Shown here one piece after another: positions 1-51,330 of a stretch of DNA of 64,000 nucleotides; the first letter of the stretch is position 1; each line of letters opens with the position of its first letter. The translations under genes and the position numbers were made by a program. Under the pieces are notes generated by a model. The model made no database searches, was not told the origin of the DNA, and worked only from the letters and a program-made list of their open reading frames with translations. Origin of the DNA: Hyphomicrobium zavarzinii ATCC 27496 (GTDB lineage: Bacteria > Pseudomonadota > Alphaproteobacteria > Rhizobiales > Hyphomicrobiaceae). Location of the stretch: contig NZ_KB911258.1 of the NCBI RefSeq assembly GCF_000383415.1, positions 1 through 64,000 on the forward strand, given 5' to 3'.

Positions 1-2240
1 CGTTCACTTACACCATCGGCGGCCTGGGCTTGGCGTTCAGCGATACGCTTTCGGGCGCTCTTGCCCGTGCAGCAGGCGAGAACGTCGGAAGCTACGCCAT
101 CGGCCAGGGGACCATAGCGGCGTCGTCCAATTACACGCTCACCTTCACGGCGGGCACGACCTTCGCCGTCACGCAGCGGCCTATCACCGTGACGGCGGAT
201 TCCGGTCAGTCGAAGATCTACGGCCACGCCGACCCGGCGTTCGCTTACACCATCGGCGGCTTGGGCTTGGCGTTTAGCGATACGCTTTCGGGCGCGCTGA
301 CCCGCGCAGCCGGAGAGAACGTCGGAAGCTACGCCATCGGCCAGGGCACCATAGCGGCGTCCTCCAACTACGCGCTCACCTTCACGCCCGGAAGCACATT
401 CGCGGTCACGCCGCGAGCGATTGCGGTCACGGCGGACACAGGCCAGGCCAAGGTGTACGGCAACGCTGACCCGGTGTTCGCTTACGCGATCAGCTCGGGC
501 ACGCTCGTGGGAAGCGACGCGTTCTCCGGCACCCTCGACAGAGCGACAGGCGAGAACGTCGGAACGTATTCCATTGCGCTGGGTTCGCTCACGCTCGGTC
601 CAAACTATACCCTGACGGTTACGCCGGGCACGACCTTCGCCGTGACGCAGCGGCCGATCACCGTGGCGGCAAACGGAGGTCAGTCGAAGGTCTACGGCAA
701 CGCCGACCCGGTGTTCGCTTACGCAATCAGCTCCGGCTCGCTGGTGGGGAGCGATGCGTTCTCGGGCGACCTGTCGCGATCGGCAGGCGAGAATGTCGGC
801 AGCTATGCTATCGAGCAGGGCTCGCTGGATCTTGGCGGGAAATACAGCCTCACCTTCACGCCGGGCACCACATTCGCGGTCACGCAGCGACCGATCACCG
901 TGACGGCAAACGCCGGTCAGTCGAAGGTCTACGGCAACGCCGACCCGGTGTTCGCTTACGCCATCGGAGGCCTGGGCTTGGCGTTTAGCGATACGCTTTC
1001 GGGCGCGCTGACCCGCGCAGCCGGAGAGAACGTCGGAAGCTACGCCATCGGTCAGGGAACCATAGCGGCGTCCTCCAATTACACGCTCACCTTCACGGCG
1101 GGCACGACCTTCGCCGTCACGCAGCGGCCTATCACCGTGACGGCGGATTCCGGTCAGTCGAAGATCTACGGCCACGCCGACCCGGCGTTCGCTTACACCA
1201 TCGGCGGCATGGGGATGGCGTTCAGCGATGCGCTTTCGGGCGCGCTGACCCGCGCAACTGGAGAGGACGCCGGAAGTTACGCCATCGGCCAGGGCACGAT
1301 AGCGGCGTCCTCCAACTACGCGCTCACCTTCACGCCCGGAACCACATTCGCGGTCACGCCGCGGCCCATCACCGTGACTGCCGACACAGGCCAGTCCAAG
1401 GTCTACGGCAACGCCGATCCGGTGTTCACCTATCACATCAGCTCGGGCACGCTCGTGGGAAGCGAGGCGTTCTCAGGAGTACTGGATCGCGTTTCTGGCG
1501 AGAACGTCGGGACGTATGGCATCGGCGCAGGCTCCTTGGCGCTGAGCGCCAACTACACGCTGAGCTTCGTTCCGGGCACCTCATTCGCGATCACACCGCG
1601 GCCCGTGACGGTTGCTGCAAACGCGGGTCAAACCAAGATCTACGGCAACGCCGACCCTGTTCTCGCGTATGCGATCAGCTCCGGCTCGCTGGTGGGGAGC
1701 GATGCGTTCTCGGGCGACCTGTCGCGAGCGGCAGGCGAGAATGTCGGCAGCTATGCTATCGAGCAGGGCTCGCTGGATCTTGGCGGGAACTACAACCTCA
1801 CCTTCACGCCGGGCACGACATTCGCCATCACGCCGCGCTCGCTCACTGTCACGGCGTTGAATGTCACGCGCGTCAACGATGGCGTCGCATTCTACGGTGG
1901 CAACGGCGTGAGCTACGCCGGCCTCGCCGTTTGGGACACGCCGTCGGTCCTGGGGGGCACGCTCGTTTACGGCGGAAGCGCCCAGGGTTCTCACAAGACC
2001 GGGAGCTACGACATCACGGTCTCCGGCCTGTCATCGGGCAACTATACGATCGGCTACATGCCCGGCATGCTCGTCATCGATCCCAAGCCCCCGTCAGGTC
2101 CGAGCCTGAGTTCGATGACGCCGCAAACACTTGTGGCTGGCCAAACAATGGAACGGTGGAGCAGCGACAAGACTTCGCCTCTCTTCCCAGTCGAATTCAA
2201 CAATCAGGTCGCCGCCGACGAAGATAGTGAAAACGACTGA
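1..2240 (+). CDS. MBG-repeat adhesin-like protein, 3' part
   Basis: The reading frame is open at the left edge, so only the C-terminal ~745 residues are seen. They consist of about seven MBG-type repeats of ~80 residues. Each carries a YG-ADP segment (for example GQSKVYGNADPVFAYAI), a GENVGSYAIGQG block, and an NYTLTFTPGTTFAVTPRPIT strand pair. A divergent last repeat is followed by a short acidic tail ending DEDSEND. Such repeats are typical of very large secreted or surface haemagglutinin-like proteins, so an extracellular role is inferred. No membrane anchor or autotransporter domain is visible at the C-terminus. The repeats are nearly identical at DNA level. It ends convergently with the next gene. 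Confidence 0.8.
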   Translation, partial: FTYTIGGLGLAFSDTLSGALARAAGENVGSYAIGQGTIAASSNYTLTFTAGTTFAVTQRPITVTADSGQSKIYGHADPAFAYTIGGLGLAFSDTLSGALTRAAGENVGSYAIGQGTIAASSNYALTFTPGSTFAVTPRAIAVTADTGQAKVYGNADPVFAYAISSGTLVGSDAFSGTLDRATGENVGTYSIALGSLTLGPNYTLTVTPGTTFAVTQRPITVAANGGQSKVYGNADPVFAYAISSGSLVGSDAFSGDLSRSAGENVGSYAIEQGSLDLGGKYSLTFTPGTTFAVTQRPITVTANAGQSKVYGNADPVFAYAIGGLGLAFSDTLSGALTRAAGENVGSYAIGQGTIAASSNYTLTFTAGTTFAVTQRPITVTADSGQSKIYGHADPAFAYTIGGMGMAFSDALSGALTRATGEDAGSYAIGQGTIAASSNYALTFTPGTTFAVTPRPITVTADTGQSKVYGNADPVFTYHISSGTLVGSEAFSGVLDRVSGENVGTYGIGAGSLALSANYTLSFVPGTSFAITPRPVTVAANAGQTKIYGNADPVLAYAISSGSLVGSDAFSGDLSRAAGENVGSYAIEQGSLDLGGNYNLTFTPGTTFAITPRSLTVTALNVTRVNDGVAFYGGNGVSYAGLAVWDTPSVLGGTLVYGGSAQGSHKTGSYDITVSGLSSGNYTIGYMPGMLVIDPKPPSGPSLSSMTPQTLVAGQTMERWSSDKTSPLFPVEFNNQVAADEDSEND

Positions 2241-11935: not shown

Positions 11936-11953
11936 TGTCAATCTATGATGACA
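11936..11953. promoter_or_regulatory. PpsR/CrtJ-type operator, bchG proximal
   Basis: Exact TGT-N12-ACA palindrome, with 7-base arms AGTGTCA/TGACACT around it. It sits immediately upstream of the bchG start codon, where a bound repressor would block transcription initiation or early elongation. Confidence 0.85.
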
Positions 11954-12053: not shown

Positions 12054-13487
12054 TCAGTCCTGCTCGTCGTCGGTGAAATCGATACCGTGACGTCTCAGCT
12101 TCGAATAGAGGCTTTGGCGCGACAGCCCCAGAACCTCCGCCGCCGAAGCGCGATTGTCGCCTGTCAGCTCCAATGCTGCTTCGATGCAGAGCTTCTCGAT
12201 GACATCTGTCGTTTCGCGCACGAGCTCCTTGAGCGAGACGCGGCCGACAAGACCGGTGAGCTGCTCCACTGAGCGCGGAAGCTCTTTCTTACCCTTTGCC
12301 CTCGGGAATTCTTGTCGATTGACCCGGCGAATGGTGAACCCATAGCAGGGGTGCTCGCCGGTCAGCACCGACACAGCCGATATCTCGACATCCTCATAGG
12401 AGCCGAATTGGCCGCGAAGGACCGTTGCGAAGTTCTGGACGGCGCCATGTTCGCGCACCGCGGTCGTGAGCGCGTTGACGTCGACACCCGAACGGCCCAC
12501 CCAGCGATCGAAAAGCTCGCCCTTCGCCTGTTCTTCAGTGGCGAGCTGGACCATGTCGAGGAACGCGGCGTTCACCTTCAGGATCCGGCGGTCGAGATCG
12601 GTGACGACGAAGCCGTCTGGCAAATTCTCGACCACCGAGAACAGCTTCGAGACGCCTTTCGGCGCGGTCGCGCCGTCCGCTCGGGACAAGCGAACGAGGA
12701 AGTGGGCGCTGGTGTCCTGGCGGAATAGCGACGCAGAGACGAGGCAATCCGTCTTTTCACCATTCAGCTTGACGCTCACCTCGTCCCCGCTGCCGGCCGT
12801 GCGCACGGCGGACAGGTGTGCCTGGACCCGTTTGCTCCCTTCGGCGTCGAAAAGTTCGAGGAAATTCCTGCTCGTCAGGCGCTTCGCCGTCTTGTTGAGG
12901 AGCTGTGCTGATGCCGGGTTGGCTTCTACGATTTTGAGACTAGTCGAATCCACGATCAGCACCGGCTCGGAGGCGATCTGGAACAACAGCCGGTAGCGAG
13001 TTTCGGCATGCCTCAGGCGCGCGTATTCGCGCTCCATCGATTGTTGCGCCTCGACGAGGCGCTGCTGCAACGCAGCGACAGGTCGCAAATCGCGGCCCAC
13101 CGCGACGAGGCGCGCGCCAGGTCCGATACGCACGGCAGTATAGCGGATCGGGATATCGCCGCGCTTCGTGGGATGGTTGACTTGGCGCCAGCGCGGCACT
13201 TCGTTTGCTGCGTTATCCGCCAGCAATTCTTCAATCTTTTGACGGCTTTCCGTCGTTACCGTATCGACCCATGGCCGACCGACCCATTTTTCGAATCCTT
13301 CCTTGGCGAGTTCGTCGTTGCCGCACGCGACATCGCGAATGACGCCCTTGGGATCGACCACGAGCGCAATATCCGCCGCTGCCGCTATAAGCTTAGCGGC
13401 TATTTCGGCGTCCAGATCTCCCAGAGTTCTTTTGGGGGTCCGGAACACGACTCCTGGATCTCGAGCAAACACAGGGCCAATCCCCAC
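12054..13487 (-). CDS. ppsR: Transcriptional repressor PpsR/CrtJ
   Basis: 477 residues. An N-terminal PAS-like region (AAADIALVVDPKGVIRDV) is followed by a coiled Q-linker (LQQRLVEAQQSMEREYARL). Two further PAS domains begin near FQIASEPVLIVDS and FSVVENLPDGFVVTD. A Fis-type helix-turn-helix ends the protein (NRASAAEVLGLSRQSLYSK). The cysteine just before the HTH (Cys434, in EKLCIEAAL) matches the redox-active cysteine of CrtJ/PpsR. It represses bch, crt and puc genes in oxygen or light. The GTG start is uncertain. It lies 36 bases downstream of ppaA in the same direction. Confidence 0.94.
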   Translation of the reverse strand: MGIGPVFARDPGVVFRTPKRTLGDLDAEIAAKLIAAAADIALVVDPKGVIRDVACGNDELAKEGFEKWVGRPWVDTVTTESRQKIEELLADNAANEVPRWRQVNHPTKRGDIPIRYTAVRIGPGARLVAVGRDLRPVAALQQRLVEAQQSMEREYARLRHAETRYRLLFQIASEPVLIVDSTSLKIVEANPASAQLLNKTAKRLTSRNFLELFDAEGSKRVQAHLSAVRTAGSGDEVSVKLNGEKTDCLVSASLFRQDTSAHFLVRLSRADGATAPKGVSKLFSVVENLPDGFVVTDLDRRILKVNAAFLDMVQLATEEQAKGELFDRWVGRSGVDVNALTTAVREHGAVQNFATVLRGQFGSYEDVEISAVSVLTGEHPCYGFTIRRVNRQEFPRAKGKKELPRSVEQLTGLVGRVSLKELVRETTDVIEKLCIEAALELTGDNRASAAEVLGLSRQSLYSKLRRHGIDFTDDEQD

Positions 13488-13523: not shown

Positions 13524-14426
13524 TCAGACAGCTTTTGTGTCAAGAAGACTTGATAGTTGACGCGTCGCCGTATGTGCATCCGTTGCCATGCCGTCCGCAC
13601 CCACGACCCTCGCGAGATCGGGTTGCGCCAGGAACAAGCGTCCGCCGACGACGATCTGGCATCTGGGATCGGCGGTGGCGCGGCGCAGGTTCTTGATGAA
13701 CGACTTCAAATCGTCTGGGGCGGTATCGCAGGAAGCCGAGATCCCGATCAAACGGAAAGGCGCGCTGCCCGCGATATCGACAAGGTCTTGTCTGCAATTG
13801 GGAATGTCGCCGCAGACAGCCCATCCGTCCCGGCGGAAAAACTCCTGCAACATCGACACGCCAAACGTATGCTGGTCTCCCGGCATCGCAGCCAGCAGAG
13901 CCTGTGGGCTTCGGCGGCTGACGCGTGTGTCGGCTTGAAAATCGGGCGCCAGCTCGCGCAGTATTTGCTGCAGGCGCGAAGTGGCGATTGTAACTGTGGC
14001 GAAATCCGCCGTGTCGTCCACCCACCGTTCCCCGAGAAGACGGGCCGCTGGTGTCAGCAGATTCAAGAAAATCTCGGCGATCGATACGCCTCGCGCTCTT
14101 ATTCGGCGGACGTGCGCAAGAGACAGGCTCACGCTCTCGCCCGAGACCAGCCGCACCATCTCGGCGATTTCCAAAGCGCTGGGTCGAGGCAGATCTCCCG
14201 CTAATGTCTCGGAAGATATCGGCAATATGTCTGAAGAAGAATAGTGGCCCAGCATGAGCCGCGGAACGATCTCTCGTTCGACCGTGTCCTTGAGCACGCG
14301 CCGGCGGCTTTCGGTCCAAGGTGATTTGCGGGCACGGGATAGAATGGGCACTGGGCTCTTCCAGCCACTTTCACTATGCGCGATCGGCCACCGCTCGAAC
14401 TCGACGAGATGCCGTGTGCTGGACAT
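13524..14426 (-). CDS. ppaA: PpaA/AerR cobalamin-binding antirepressor
   Basis: 300 residues. The N-terminal helical domain contains EREIVPRLMLGH and LLTPAARLLGERWVDDTADF. The C-terminal Rossmann part has the B12 lower-ligand motif DQHTFG (DxHxxG), then GISASCD and a closing QIVVGGRLF strand. AerR/PpaA binds B12 and modulates PpsR/CrtJ activity in response to light and redox. It precedes ppsR on the same strand. A separate response regulator in this window (45619-46458) carries a domain like the N-terminal half of this protein. Confidence 0.92.
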   Translation of the reverse strand: MSSTRHLVEFERWPIAHSESGWKSPVPILSRARKSPWTESRRRVLKDTVEREIVPRLMLGHYSSSDILPISSETLAGDLPRPSALEIAEMVRLVSGESVSLSLAHVRRIRARGVSIAEIFLNLLTPAARLLGERWVDDTADFATVTIATSRLQQILRELAPDFQADTRVSRRSPQALLAAMPGDQHTFGVSMLQEFFRRDGWAVCGDIPNCRQDLVDIAGSAPFRLIGISASCDTAPDDLKSFIKNLRRATADPRCQIVVGGRLFLAQPDLARVVGADGMATDAHTATRQLSSLLDTKAV

Positions 14427-38542: not shown

Positions 38543-38560
38543 TGTCAAGCAAACTATACA
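38543..38560. promoter_or_regulatory. PpsR/CrtJ-type operator, bchC site 2
   Basis: Exact TGT-N12-ACA, separated from site 1 by exactly 8 bp. Read on the minus strand it contains TTGACA, a good -35 hexamer. The paired-palindrome arrangement matches the known CrtJ-regulated bchC promoter of Rhodobacter capsulatus. It overlaps the crtF stop codon. Confidence 0.85.
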
Positions 38561-40648: not shown

Positions 40649-40666
40649 TGTCCAATAATATTGACA
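40649..40666. promoter_or_regulatory. PpsR/CrtJ-type operator between crtE and crtD
   Basis: Exact TGT-N12-ACA in the divergent intergenic region, with TTGACA on the plus strand and TTGGACA on the minus strand. It could control both directions. Confidence 0.85.
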
Positions 40667-43187: not shown

Positions 43188-43324
43188 GCCGGGCAAATGA
43201 CGATGACGATACGTCACGGGCTCGCCAAAAAGAGCCCCCTCGGAGGAGACGAACTTGCGCCGAATTTGGCCCGACGCGGTCGCACGTGCCGACGCCGGCC
43301 TGCGCTTGCAGGCTTGAGGCTGCC

Positions 43325-45622
43325 ATGTCCCGCGCAAAATCACCGTCGAGCAGCGATCTCGTCACGGCTCGCAATGTCGATTTCTCTAACTGCGACCGTG
43401 AGTTAATTCAATATCCCGGTGCTGTGCAAGGTCACGGCGCTATGCTCATCGTGGACGAGCCGGACTTTCGCATCCAGCAGGCGAGCCTCAACTGCAGGGA
43501 AATCATCGGCGTTGATGCAAAGGACCTTCTTGGCAAGTCGATCGCCGATGTGTTCGGCCAACGCGCGCCGGAAATGCTCGAGCGCATGCACCGTATGGCG
43601 CTGGAGTATGGCCCCGTTCATGTCGTGCGCGAAAGCTTCGCCGGCTCGACCAGTGGCGTGAACATCTTCGCCCACCGTTGCGACGGTGTGCTTATTCTCG
43701 AGCTCGAGGCGATTACGAGCGCCACGGAGCCGGCCAGCACGCAGCTCTATTCCGACGTTCGGGAGAGCATCGCGAAGTTGGAAAAAGCCCGGGGGATTCA
43801 GCAATTTCACGACCTTGCCGTAGACCGTATTCGAGCCTTCACGGGATACGACCGCGTCATGGCATACAAGTTCGCGGAAGACGGCAGCGGCCACGTCGTC
43901 GCGGAGGCGAAGCGAGAGGATCTCGAGCCCTATCTTGGCCTGCATTACCCGGCGACCGACATTCCCGCGCCTGCCCGGCGTCTTTTCGGGCTGAGCTGGC
44001 TTCGGCATTTGCCTGACGTCAACTACACCGCCGTCCCCCTCATTCCCGATGTTCACCCCGTCACGGGGCGCCCGATCGACATGAGCTTTTCGATCCTGCG
44101 CAGCGTTTCCGTCATGTACGCCGGATACCTGAAAAATATGGGCGTGCACTCGACGATGGTCATGCCGCTCATGAAGGAAGGGGTGCTGTGGGGATTGATA
44201 TCGGCCATGCATCACAGCGGTCCTCGCCACGTGCCCTACGAGGTCCGCATGGCGGCCGAGTTTCTCTCCCACATGGTTTCGCTGCTCATGGCGGGCAAAG
44301 AGGATTCTGAATTCTACGAAACCCGCTTCCGCATGAGCGCCGTCGCGGACCAATTGGTCGAGGAGGCGCGGCAGGACCCCGACCTTCACAGCTCGCTCGG
44401 ATCTCAGGACCGCAATTTGAACCTTTTGAGCCTGCTTCCGGCGCAAGGAGCGGCTGTAAGCTCGCGCGGGAAGTTGTCCTTGATCGGACTGACGCCGACA
44501 TCCGAGCAGACCGCTGAATTGGTGCGATGGGTTGCCGACCAGAACCTTCCGGTCATTGCCACTGACAGGTTGTCGGAAATCTATCCCGCAGCGGCGGCTT
44601 ACAAGTCCGTGGCGAGTGGCGTCCTTGCAACCCGCCTGGCCGCGCACACCACAGAAATGCTCCTTTGGTTCAGGCCCGAGCATATCGAAATCGTGAATTG
44701 GGCTGGTGACCCGAAAAAGCCGATGCAGATCTGCGAAACGGATGGAGAGGTTAGATTGCAACCTCGCGCTTCGTTTGCGCTGTGGAAGCAGAGCGTCACC
44801 GGCCGGAGCGAGCCATGGCGCAAAGACGAGAAGGATGTTGTCGAGCACCTCCGGCAGGCGCTGATGAGCTCAATAGCGTCCCGCGCCGAGGAGATCGAAC
44901 GCCTCAATCGGCAATTGGCTGATGCGAACGTCGAGCTGGATAGCTTCGCCTATGCGGCATCGCACGATCTCAAGGAGCCCCTCCGGGGTGTGCATCACCT
45001 GGCGAGTTTCCTGAAGCGGGGCGAGCAGGACCAACTCACGGAGGAGGGCCGTCAGCAACTGGATGCGATCCTGCGGCTAACCCGCCGGATGGATGATCTT
45101 ATTGAATCGCTTCTTCAATATTCGCGAACCGGGCGCACCGAGCTGTCGCTTCAGAATGCCGACCTGGATGTGCTGCTCGATGAAACCCTTCTGGCGTGCC
45201 GGCGGTTGATCACTGATACCGCGACGGAAATTCGGCGTGCGGAACAGCTCGGAACTGCGTTGTGCGATGCGGTAAGGCTGAAGGAGGTTTTCGCCAATCT
45301 CATCATTAATGCAATCAAGTACAACGACAAACCAAACCGGATCGTCGAAATCGGCGTAGAGGAGATTGTCGTAGAGGAAGCGCCACGGAAACGGTATTTT
45401 GTGAGAGACAACGGCATCGGTATTACCGACGCGGCCAAGGAACAGATATTCGAGATCTTTCACCGCATGCATGGGCAAGACGAGTTCGGCGGCGGCACAG
45501 GGGCGGGGCTCACGATTGCCCGCCGCACGATTGAGCGTCACGGTGGGAGGCTGTGGGTGGAGTCGTCGGTCGGCGAAGGCTCGACGTTCTTCTTCACTCT
45601 CGGCCCGGAGGCATCCAGATGA
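43325..45622 (+). CDS. bphP: Bacteriophytochrome histidine kinase
   Basis: 765 residues with the PAS-GAF-PHY-kinase order. Cys23 (in FSNCDRELIQYPGAVQGHG) is at the biliverdin-attachment position. The GAF domain has HYPATDIPAPARRLFG (DIP motif) and a PHY domain follows. The phosphoacceptor H-box is YAASHDLKEPLRGVHHL; the ATPase boxes are NLIINAIKYND and VRDNGIGITD. It senses red/far-red light. GAGG lies five bases ahead of the ATG at MSRAKSP. The stop overlaps the response-regulator start (ATGA), so the two are a cognate pair. Confidence 0.95.
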   Translation: MSRAKSPSSSDLVTARNVDFSNCDRELIQYPGAVQGHGAMLIVDEPDFRIQQASLNCREIIGVDAKDLLGKSIADVFGQRAPEMLERMHRMALEYGPVHVVRESFAGSTSGVNIFAHRCDGVLILELEAITSATEPASTQLYSDVRESIAKLEKARGIQQFHDLAVDRIRAFTGYDRVMAYKFAEDGSGHVVAEAKREDLEPYLGLHYPATDIPAPARRLFGLSWLRHLPDVNYTAVPLIPDVHPVTGRPIDMSFSILRSVSVMYAGYLKNMGVHSTMVMPLMKEGVLWGLISAMHHSGPRHVPYEVRMAAEFLSHMVSLLMAGKEDSEFYETRFRMSAVADQLVEEARQDPDLHSSLGSQDRNLNLLSLLPAQGAAVSSRGKLSLIGLTPTSEQTAELVRWVADQNLPVIATDRLSEIYPAAAAYKSVASGVLATRLAAHTTEMLLWFRPEHIEIVNWAGDPKKPMQICETDGEVRLQPRASFALWKQSVTGRSEPWRKDEKDVVEHLRQALMSSIASRAEEIERLNRQLADANVELDSFAYAASHDLKEPLRGVHHLASFLKRGEQDQLTEEGRQQLDAILRLTRRMDDLIESLLQYSRTGRTELSLQNADLDVLLDETLLACRRLITDTATEIRRAEQLGTALCDAVRLKEVFANLIINAIKYNDKPNRIVEIGVEEIVVEEAPRKRYFVRDNGIGITDAAKEQIFEIFHRMHGQDEFGGGTGAGLTIARRTIERHGGRLWVESSVGEGSTFFFTLGPEASR

Positions 45623-46458
45623 CAGCTGGCAAGGGCAAGATCATTTCCATTGAGGACAGTGACACGGATTTCATGGCCCTGAGATTCGCGCTGAAATCCT
45701 CAAAAATCGACGCTGAACTCGAACGCTTCACGACCGGCGGCACCGCCATCAGCCAATTCGGCGCGAGTTGCCCGCTCCAGCGAAAATCGACGCTGATCCT
45801 GCTGGATCTCAATCTGCCTGGTATCGACGGCCGCCAGGTTTTGAAGGCCGTGCGCGATCACGATCCCAAGCGGCAGGTGCCGGTCATCGTGCTCTCGACG
45901 TCGTCCCACCCCCGAGACATCGAGTTCTGTCAGCATGCCGGCGCCGATGCCTATGTCGTGAAGCCGTTCGAGCTGGACGATTGGGAGCGCAAGATCGGGC
46001 CATTGGCGAGCTATTGGCTTGAGAAGGCGTCGCGCACGTCGGCCACCTCCAGCAGCAAAGCCGACTCGCGCACGCCCGGCCACCTCCCGGTTCTGGATCG
46101 CTCGCAGCTGATCCGTGCCATCGAGGCCGAGATCATTCCGAGGCTGCTTTTGGCGCACGGCCATTCGTCCTCCGAAAACGCGGCAGCGGCTCTATCGGAC
46201 GAGATTGCGGAGCTTGCGCGGCTTGCGCTCTCCCAGGACACGGCCGCCGCGACGGCGCTGGTCGAGCGCTTGCAAACTCCCAGCGTAACGCTGGAGATGC
46301 TATTCAAGTCGCACGTCGCACCGGCGGCGCGACTGATCGGAGATCTCTGGAAGGCTGAAATGTGCGCGTTCAGCGAGTTCGAACGCGCATTAACCTGCCT
46401 TCAGGATCTGTTGGTGCAGGTCAATCCGCCCAAAGCCTCCGACGAAACGCTTCACTGA
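45619..46458 (+). CDS. Response regulator fused to a PpaA/AerR-like helical domain
   Basis: 279 residues. Residues 1-140 form a receiver like those paired with phytochromes: acidic pocket IEDSDTDF, phosphoacceptor Asp63 in LILLDLNLPGIDG, and Lys115 in AYVVKPFEL. After a Ser-rich linker, residues ~158-270 parallel the N-terminal helical part of PpaA/AerR. EAEIIPRLLLAH matches EREIVPRLMLGH of the local ppaA product, and HVAPAARLIGDLWKAEMCAF matches LLTPAARLLGERWVDDTADF. The DxHxxG cobalamin domain is absent; the chain stops just after the helical region. A phosphorylation-controlled PpsR partner is inferred. Confidence 0.85.
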   Translation: MTAGKGKIISIEDSDTDFMALRFALKSSKIDAELERFTTGGTAISQFGASCPLQRKSTLILLDLNLPGIDGRQVLKAVRDHDPKRQVPVIVLSTSSHPRDIEFCQHAGADAYVVKPFELDDWERKIGPLASYWLEKASRTSATSSSKADSRTPGHLPVLDRSQLIRAIEAEIIPRLLLAHGHSSSENAAAALSDEIAELARLALSQDTAAATALVERLQTPSVTLEMLFKSHVAPAARLIGDLWKAEMCAFSEFERALTCLQDLLVQVNPPKASDETLH

Positions 46459-51284: not shown

Positions 51285-51313
51285 TTGCGAATAATGTAAT
51301 TACAGTATTTAAT
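51285..51313 (+). promoter_or_regulatory. Putative crtI promoter, near-leaderless
   Basis: TTGCGA (51285-51290), 17-base spacer, TTTAAT (51308-51313). Initiation would be expected near 51320, within a couple of bases of the crtI ATG at 51322. There is no SD in the gap. Confidence 0.45.
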
Positions 51314-51330
51314 GTCAAACTATGTTGACA
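51313..51330. promoter_or_regulatory. PpsR/CrtJ-type operator at crtI start
   Basis: Exact TGT-N12-ACA. It overlaps both the predicted -10 and the crtI ATG, so bound PpsR would cover the initiation site itself. Confidence 0.85.

Follow-up and report, generated by a model that had tools for sequence, protein, structure and literature searches.

A receiver domain joined to an AerR-type cap behind a bacteriophytochrome in Hyphomicrobiaceae: a candidate link between red-light sensing and PpsR

What does a phytochrome response regulator act on when its receiver is followed by one half of a B12-dependent photoreceptor? The question is raised by a locus within a 64,000-nucleotide stretch (hereafter, the window) of Hyphomicrobium zavarzinii ATCC 27496 (NZ_KB911258.1, positions 1 to 64,000), where an ORF of 279 aa at 45619..46458 (+ strand) encodes a receiver, a linker, a segment denoted alpha1 and a four-helix bundle of the AerR/PpaA type, without the B12-binding Rossmann half.

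Organization of the fusion gene and its genomic setting

The fusion gene is preceded on the same strand by a bacteriophytochrome (BphP) gene encoding a PAS-GAF-PHY-HisKA-HATPase protein (43286..45622), the likely kinase partner of the fusion. The fusion ATG and the bphP stop codon overlap as ATGA, and co-translation, which the initial annotation took as given, is what this overlap by itself suggests. HisKA and HATPase_c were detected in the window BphP by Pfam; the kinase catalytic boxes are intact in all eight genomes that carry the fusion, and the chromophore-binding Cys is present in six, namely, those in which the BphP N-terminus lies on the contig.

The receiver comprises residues 1-143 (45619..46047, +), as delineated by Pfam, PDB sequence matches, the structural model and the fold matches. 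Response_reg was recognized at residues 8-121 (E 9.5e-15), and the Pfam search yielded nothing else above the cut-off in the fusion; SCP2_2 (E 0.029-0.1) fell under it and was dropped. PDB sequence matches include RcpB (1k66, 5.4e-24), Rcp1 and the Deinococcus BphP response regulator (DrBphP RR, 6xvu). D63 (codon 45805-45807, +) is embedded in LLDLNLPG, and E12, D13, D63, T94 and K115, that is, the acidic pair, the phospho-acceptor Asp, the Thr and the Lys, are invariant in all eight fusion homologues, in keeping with the normal phytochrome-type receiver that had been described at the N-terminus. The variable linker (residues 144-160, 46048..46098, +) was delimited by pLDDT, which drops below 50 over residues 144-159 of the predicted structure, and by column constraint, far weaker here than in the domains. 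The alpha1 segment (IEAEIIPRLL..., residues 161-179, 46099..46155, +), common to AerR, is the best-kept stretch of the output domain, and the cap helices span residues 189-268 (46183..46422, +), close to the AerR-like part originally placed at residues 158-270. An invariant tripeptide T-x-H (TLH here, 46447..46455, +) terminates all eight homologues, which counts against a plain PpsR adapter; its conserved His sits on a low-confidence tail of the model.

The homology of the output domain to AerR is apparent from several comparisons. The 139-aa C-terminal part aligns with the AerR encoded in the window at 33% identity over 125 columns (BLASTP 2e-15, a single-sequence comparison), and their score of 146 was reached by none of 2000 shuffles, the largest of which scored 67. 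Both motif pairs quoted in the initial annotation, EIIPRLLL/EIVPRLML and PAARLIGDLW/PAARLLGERW, are present in the fusion and the window AerR. When a profile of two fusion C-termini was compared with 177,635 distinct PDB sequences, the single match at E <= 10 was the AerR crystal structure 7te2 (4.3e-5). Because receiver matches filled the VIA list obtained with the whole fusion, a separate model of the output domain was built and used for a second search. After VIA re-scoring of the Foldseek list, the top 38 rows were B12/corrinoid cap domains or SCHIC, including AerR 7te2 (Z 10.8, rmsd 3.0, 83 aligned), AppA SCHIC 4heh (Z 10.9, rmsd 1.7, 78 aligned) and the AppA chain of the AppA-PpsR complex 4hh3 (Z 10.4, rmsd 2.4, 79 aligned), with the earliest unrelated row at Z 6.8, a Z of about 11 being in itself no decisive score for a helical bundle. 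Two observations weigh against the PpsR-adapter reading here: B12-binding_2 matched the C-terminal part weakly (E 0.03, under the Pfam cut-off), and plain Foldseek of the cap model against PDB gave no match at E <= 0.001. Thus, sequence and fold both lead from residues 158-270 to AerR and not to an unrelated family, as initially proposed.

The presumed target, PpsR (PAS domains and HTH_8; 12054..13487, - strand), contains the Q-linker motif QQRLVEAQQSMEREYARLR; PpsR is encoded in all eight fusion genomes, each time with the docking-helix motif. Its neighbor in the window is a complete AerR/PpaA homologue with the B12-binding Rossmann domain (13524..14426, -), which occupies the place adjoining ppsR, and the fusion lies about 32 kb away. 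A palindrome (40649..40666, unstranded) is located between divergent genes that, judging from their translations, we take to be crtE and crtD, upstream of crtD-crtC-bphP-fusion, with crtC named on the same assumption. It conforms to the PpsR box consensus TGTN12ACA (PMC6899989, accessible text) and may function as such a box. The window contains 12 boxes of this type compared to a mean of 4.95 in shuffles (1 of 100 shuffles as high), a count that we do not use as proof.

Distribution and conservation of the fusion

Fusions of this type are found in some Hyphomicrobiaceae, inside the photosynthesis gene cluster. We identified them in eight distinct genomes, in all of which the gene lies immediately 3' of a kinase-type bacteriophytochrome gene, with bchI-bchD-bchO downstream, at the same position within the cluster; the pairing with bphP noted in the window is therefore a repeated one. 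Among 103 family genomes, the same seven encode both the fusion and a BphP closely orthologous to that of the window (66-69% identical), and all seven belong to the 28 with pufM. Two further kinase-type BphPs in the family (G047 and G104) are followed by a receiver gene with no cap.

All but one of the 166 distinct cap-bearing frames carry either a Rossmann domain without a receiver (157) or a receiver without a Rossmann domain (eight); the remaining one is a frame-shifted AerR. Outside the fusions, 157 of 158 frames thus contain the Rossmann domain with the lower axial His, which none of the fusions has, and the loss reported for the window fusion applies to all eight. Several candidates were discarded. 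L227 (genome G230) had appeared to be a Rossmann-less cap, but reading all three frames, unmended, places its Rossmann part in a different one; L130, Rossmann-less by a single-sequence query, is matched by the Rossmann-part profile at 9.3e-9; and L032, L033, L035 and L036, weak C-terminal matches that failed the cap profile, were not counted as caps, three of them appearing unrelated. Beyond the family, no fusion was detected among the cap matches in samples of 397 genomes from the order, 385 from the class and 398 from the phylum, which are overlapping draws with E limits of 1e-8, 1e-8 and 1e-6, respectively, and with scoring confined in each genome to the 10-11 top first-look candidates; all listed cap matches in these samples were read as DNA. 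Among 72,556 plasmid records, four match the cap, each at less than 40% identity; the annotation of three is B12-binding protein, and the fourth has no listed feature.

In a cap tree built by a quick method from 95 columns and weakly resolved, seven fusions group together (SH-aLRT 98), and the Methyloceanibacter fusion (L071) is placed elsewhere, within open forks, so that a single origin of the fusions is neither excluded nor established. In five pairs, pN of the cap is 0.20-0.37 compared to pS of 0.63-0.86; pN being well under pS, the cap evolves under purifying selection. Over the eight genomes, 20 cap columns are invariant, including the very last residue.

Candidate targets of the detached cap

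The domain composition, the loss of the Rossmann half, the linkage to BphP, the docking motif of PpsR and the purifying selection on the cap, all evident at the level of sequence, are consistent with a fusion module that would bind PpsR, with phosphorylation as its input. We favor, with a probability of about 0.6, the interpretation that the fusion is the dedicated response regulator of the adjoining BphP and that its output, a detached AerR cap, acts on PpsR. Under this scheme, light would change the kinase activity of BphP, which would phosphorylate D63 or withhold phosphate; the receiver would then change how alpha1 and the four-helix cap face the PpsR Q-linker helix; and the altered docking would change the hold of PpsR on photosynthesis promoters. 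Phosphotransfer, PpsR binding, the PpsR site and either sign of the effect (antirepressor or corepressor) are steps that we infer. A complete AerR is encoded in all eight fusion genomes, beside which the fusion would work, possibly competing for the same PpsR surface. Taken for the entire cell, the idea that phosphorylation replaces cobalamin photochemistry accordingly overstates the case, although phosphorylation as input is consistent with the data; the fusion would be an added input rather than a replacement.

The residues at the proposed PpsR contacts give a mixed picture. Contact of AerR cap helix 4 with the Q-linker of PpsR/CrtJ is itself a model, patterned on the AppA-PpsR complex that has been solved, and this counts against the PpsR reading; Gln112, Thr105 and Ser109 of AerR are the residues proposed to touch CrtJ (PMC9144470, accessible text). 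The equivalent of Gln112 is Q in all eight fusions and in 63 of 73 AerR. At the Thr105 position, T is found in 70 of 73 AerR but in one fusion (S in six, E in the window fusion), and at the Ser109 position, S occurs in three of eight fusions and in merely 23 of 73 AerR. Two of the three positions are thus not kept in the fusions, which argues against a PpsR adapter and in favor of a cap that retains its fold but has another target, either binding a different regulator or helping a conventional phytochrome response regulator to dimerise, with no involvement of PpsR. The cap-free receivers behind the G047 and G104 BphPs point in the same direction, as do the B12-type caps among the fold matches from CarH, MetH and photocobilins, which are outside PpsR control. 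However, AerR is the sole PDB sequence match of the cap profile, alpha1 is kept, and the gene resides in the photosynthesis gene cluster of genomes that all encode PpsR, so that we consider another target possible but unlikely.

On the B12 side, the fusions depart from AerR at three positions that probably face B12 or the Rossmann domain, a point in favor of the PpsR reading. W+10, which we take, from CarH and MetH, to lie over the corrin, is Val in 71 of 73 AerR and Phe in seven of eight fusions; W+12 is I/L/V/M in 70 of 73 AerR and E/Q/R in seven of eight fusions; and the Arg/His ahead of the AerR linker, present in 64 of 73 AerR, is lost in seven of eight fusions. L071 retains AerR-like residues at all three and may represent an early state or a separate fusion. 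By contrast, the B12-near cap residues of SAerR, R88, W94 and F101, are kept in seven, eight and seven of the eight fusions, respectively; in CarH, the residues described are W131/H132 (PMC8221060, accessible text). Unless they are structural, such residues would be needless in a pure PpsR adapter, and their retention counts against one. Together with the presence of AerR in every fusion genome and the conserved terminal His on its low-confidence tail, they would fit a fusion that targets AerR, its cap competing with, or pairing in trans with, the AerR cap/Rossmann unit, so that phytochrome gates the B12 photoreceptor. Given the Phe at W+10 and the polar or charged W+12, docking on the Rossmann/B12 face of AerR should suffer, and we regard this reading as rather improbable. 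More speculative still is a phosphorylation-gated half-receptor, in which the cap, through the Trp94, Arg88 and Phe101 equivalents and the tail His, would dock in trans on AerR-cobalamin-PpsR, such that red/far-red and B12-absorbed light would be computed in one complex on photosynthesis promoters. The cap as a functionless, decaying remnant of an AerR copy fused to a receiver would agree with the lost Rossmann half, but is already disfavoured and highly improbable given pN far under pS in all five pairs and the invariant cap columns, down to the last residue.

Comparison with known phytochrome and AerR systems

AerR/PpaA (SAerR 7te2; PMC9144470, accessible text) shares with the fusion a homologous four-helix cap, whose fourth helix contacts the PpsR/CrtJ Q-linker in the published model, and the alpha1 motif, as seen in the alphaproteobacterial AerR set; both are encoded in the same gene cluster. 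The fusion differs in the absence of the Rossmann domain and the lower axial His, which leaves an incomplete B12 site, in the receiver in front, and in a gene that does not adjoin ppsR. If the favored reading is correct, the AerR cap and alpha1 together form a portable module for PpsR control, which evolution has separated from B12 chemistry and placed under another sensor, and the question of which AerR half acts on PpsR, resting on models in PMC9144470 (accessible text), becomes directly testable.

AppA (BLUF-SCHIC) of Rhodobacter sphaeroides similarly joins a sensor domain to a B12-type cap domain, which in AppA binds PpsR (4hh3), but AppA, a sensor of blue light and heme, still has its Rossmann-like SCHIC half, whereas the sensor side of the fusion is a receiver, with neither BLUF (Pfam, above cut-off) nor a Rossmann-like half (Rossmann-part profile) detected. 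HP1 (Rru_A0625) of Rhodospirillum rubrum is likewise AerR-like, lacks the B12 motif and controls photosynthesis genes; unlike the fusion, it is 181 aa long, adjoins ppsR and has a proposed redox cue, and no receiver is described in the accessible text (PMC10734443).

Rcp1, RcpA, RcpB and the Deinococcus BphP response regulator (1i3c, 1k68, 1k66, 6xvu) belong to the same receiver family and share with the fusion the placement of the receiver gene after that of a phytochrome kinase, seen also in G047 and G104; the solved chains, of 140-171 aa, consist of the receiver alone, and the fusion adds an output domain in all eight cases. In the portions of the open-access literature searched, no receiver-AerR cap adapter between phytochrome and PpsR was found; in the accessible part of PMC6199135, phytochrome appears in the reference list only and a response regulator was not found.

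Phytochromes are known to act on PpsR and photosynthesis genes in Rhodopseudomonas (BphP1-PpsR2) and Bradyrhizobium (BrBphP1-PpsR2), and in Rhodopseudomonas, where structural data are available, the phytochrome binds the repressor itself (PMC6899989, PMC3899966, accessible text). There, RpBphP1 is of type 3, with a PAS9-HOS output, and itself forms the complex with PpsR2, whereas the window BphP has HisKA/HATPase and a separate receiver. The fusion family suggests an alternative route, namely, a two-component phosphorelay in which the cap portion of a B12 photoreceptor serves as output; this appears to be a new connection between red-light sensing and PpsR and, if true, would offer a part for red/far-red switches.

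Domain architecture of the fusion protein

The 279-aa open reading frame at 45619-46458 (+) begins within the stop codon of bphP (43286-45622, +), in an ATGA overlap. Residues 8-121 of the product form a receiver domain (Pfam, 9.5e-15), and the closest relatives of solved structure, by sequence, are phytochrome response regulators, namely RcpB (5.4e-24), Rcp1 (~5e-16) and the Deinococcus BphP regulator (1.2e-15), in agreement with the phytochrome-type receiver proposed in the initial annotation. Beyond the receiver, the Pfam search yielded no family above the cut-off. Homology of the C-terminal part to AerR/PpaA, initially suggested by eye, is borne out by BLASTP against the AerR whose gene lies some 32 kb away in the window (2e-15, a one-sequence comparison), by shuffling (0 of 2000 shuffles scored as high as the fusion-AerR alignment), and by comparison of a two-sequence cap profile with PDB sequences, where the AerR crystal 7te2 was the single match at E <= 10 (4.3e-5).

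An AlphaFold2 model of the whole protein built from an 8-sequence alignment (mean pLDDT 78.7, pTM 0.52) consists of the receiver, a low-confidence linker, helix alpha1 (161-179) and four helices (189-268). When the output domain was modelled alone (pLDDT 82.0, pTM 0.63), the first 38 VIA rows were all B12/corrinoid cap domains or SCHIC, with unrelated rows from Z 6.8. Z values in these rows include 12.2 for photocobilin 8j2w, 10.9 for AppA SCHIC 4heh, 10.8 for AerR 7te2, and 10.4 for AppA in its complex with PpsR (4hh3); the aligned portion is the four-helix bundle, with alpha1 outside. Plain Foldseek with the output-domain model gave no matches at E <= 0.001. For helical bundles, Z of this size is weak evidence if taken alone, as the tool itself remarks; the cap assignment follows from the clean VIA ranking and the PDB sequence match taken together.

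From the collected loci, we gathered 221 cap-bearing frames, 166 of them distinct (frames identical over the last 150 residues were entered once, and the overlapping long stretches L039 and L040 were excluded). A Rossmann half without a receiver is present in 157, a receiver without a Rossmann half in eight, and neither in one; thus, the absence of the B12-binding half claimed for the window protein extends to all eight receiver-bearing frames. A smaller locus set gave 152, 8 and 1, respectively (n=161). The lone frame with neither domain (L227, genome G230) is a frame-shifted AerR: its Rossmann part is read in a different frame, the mark of a pseudogene or of a faulty assembly.

Distribution and genomic context

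The fusion is real and conserved. It was detected in eight distinct genomes (that of the window, G011, G114, G123, G127, G134, G135, and the Methyloceanibacter MAG G859), and in all eight its start overlaps or abuts the bphP stop, in line with the pairing noted in the window. The order bphP-fusion-(ispH)-bchI-bchD-bchO is kept throughout, with ispH present in three loci; crtI lies further downstream in seven, those where the DNA read extends that far, and crtD-crtC upstream of bphP in six, those with a contig continuing past bphP. Neighbour names are taken from the window ORFs and are largely what we presume these genes to be, with Pfam support for ispH.

Among the 103 genomes of the family surveyed, 28 encode pufM; seven of these carry the fusion, and the same seven family genomes encode a close BphP orthologue. 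In G047 and G104, a kinase-type BphP gene is followed by a cap-less receiver frame of 154-156 aa (L147, L148), which is the ordinary arrangement and perhaps the ancestral pairing. Although present in the window's genome, pufM was detected in none of seven same-genus genomes (G001-G007; E <= 1e-60); phototrophy in this genus shows patchy gain or loss. The window's genome also encodes a second phytochrome (G000:C6:191142-192710, an 874 aa open frame) with 35% identity to residues 19-549 of the window's BphP.

All eight fusion genomes encode PpsR with an intact Q-linker motif, described as universal among CrtJ orthologues in PMC9144470, as well as a complete AerR, and the H, N, G1 and G2 boxes are retained in their BphPs. 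The complete AerR of G859 is on contig C104; a fragment matching the AerR C-terminus (an open frame of 48 aa, with 48% identity) adjoins ppsR on C134 and may be a remnant or a gene cut off at the contig edge. The window contains 12 TGTN12ACA palindromes of the PpsR-box type versus a shuffle mean of 4.95, among them 11936-11953, 38543-38560, 40649-40666 and 51313-51330; several lie at or near gene starts, including one between the divergent crtE and crtD and one ahead of crtI. A long ORF built from highly repetitive units occupies the left edge of the window (30-2240) and looks unrelated to photosynthesis.

Conservation of the cap

We compared the eight fusion caps with 73 AerR caps, locating the residues reported in PMC9144470 by counting from the Trp. 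The best conserved stretch is alpha1 (mean 0.86 in fusions, 0.70 in AerR). Of the B12-side residues named in that source, R88 is kept in 7/8, W94 in 8/8 and F101 in 7/8; of the PpsR/CrtJ contacts put forward there, Q112 is kept in 8/8, T105 in 1/8 (S in six) and S109 in 3/8, the last varying within AerR as well (S in 23/73). The picture suggested by these sequences is mixed, with some PpsR-side residues lost and some B12-side residues still there. Seven fusions depart from AerR at W+10, at W+12 and at the position preceding the AerR linker, and only L071 (the G859 locus) is AerR-like there, which we read as relaxation on the side that probably once faced B12 and the Rossmann half. Cys at W+5 occurs in all fusions, yet also in 48/73 AerR. 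A T-x-H motif ends all eight fusion proteins after a variable tail. In five pairs, pN was 0.20-0.37 and pS 0.63-0.86 for the cap versus 0.41-0.67 and 0.63-0.85 for the linker; with dS near or at saturation, these figures are meaningful as a contrast only.

A candidate phosphorelay to PpsR

A phosphorelay that runs from the phytochrome through the AerR-derived output domain to PpsR would explain these features most economically. PpsR is a well-motivated candidate target, and its binding by the fusion, with whichever sign, is putative. In PMC9144470, the N-terminal helix and His10 of LAerR are held to alter CrtJ action after light. In the fusion, the receiver precedes a helix that we take to be comparable; given this placement, phosphorylation could displace alpha1, in parallel to the effect proposed for His10 ligation.

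As far as searched, the fusion is undescribed: among the papers listed by full-text searches of an open-access library, none describes a receiver-AerR fusion, judged from titles and abstract openings. In the known phytochrome control of PpsR, RpBphP1 of Rhodopseudomonas forms a complex with PpsR2 (PMC6899989), and PpsR2 of Bradyrhizobium is modulated by BrBphP1 (PMC3899966).
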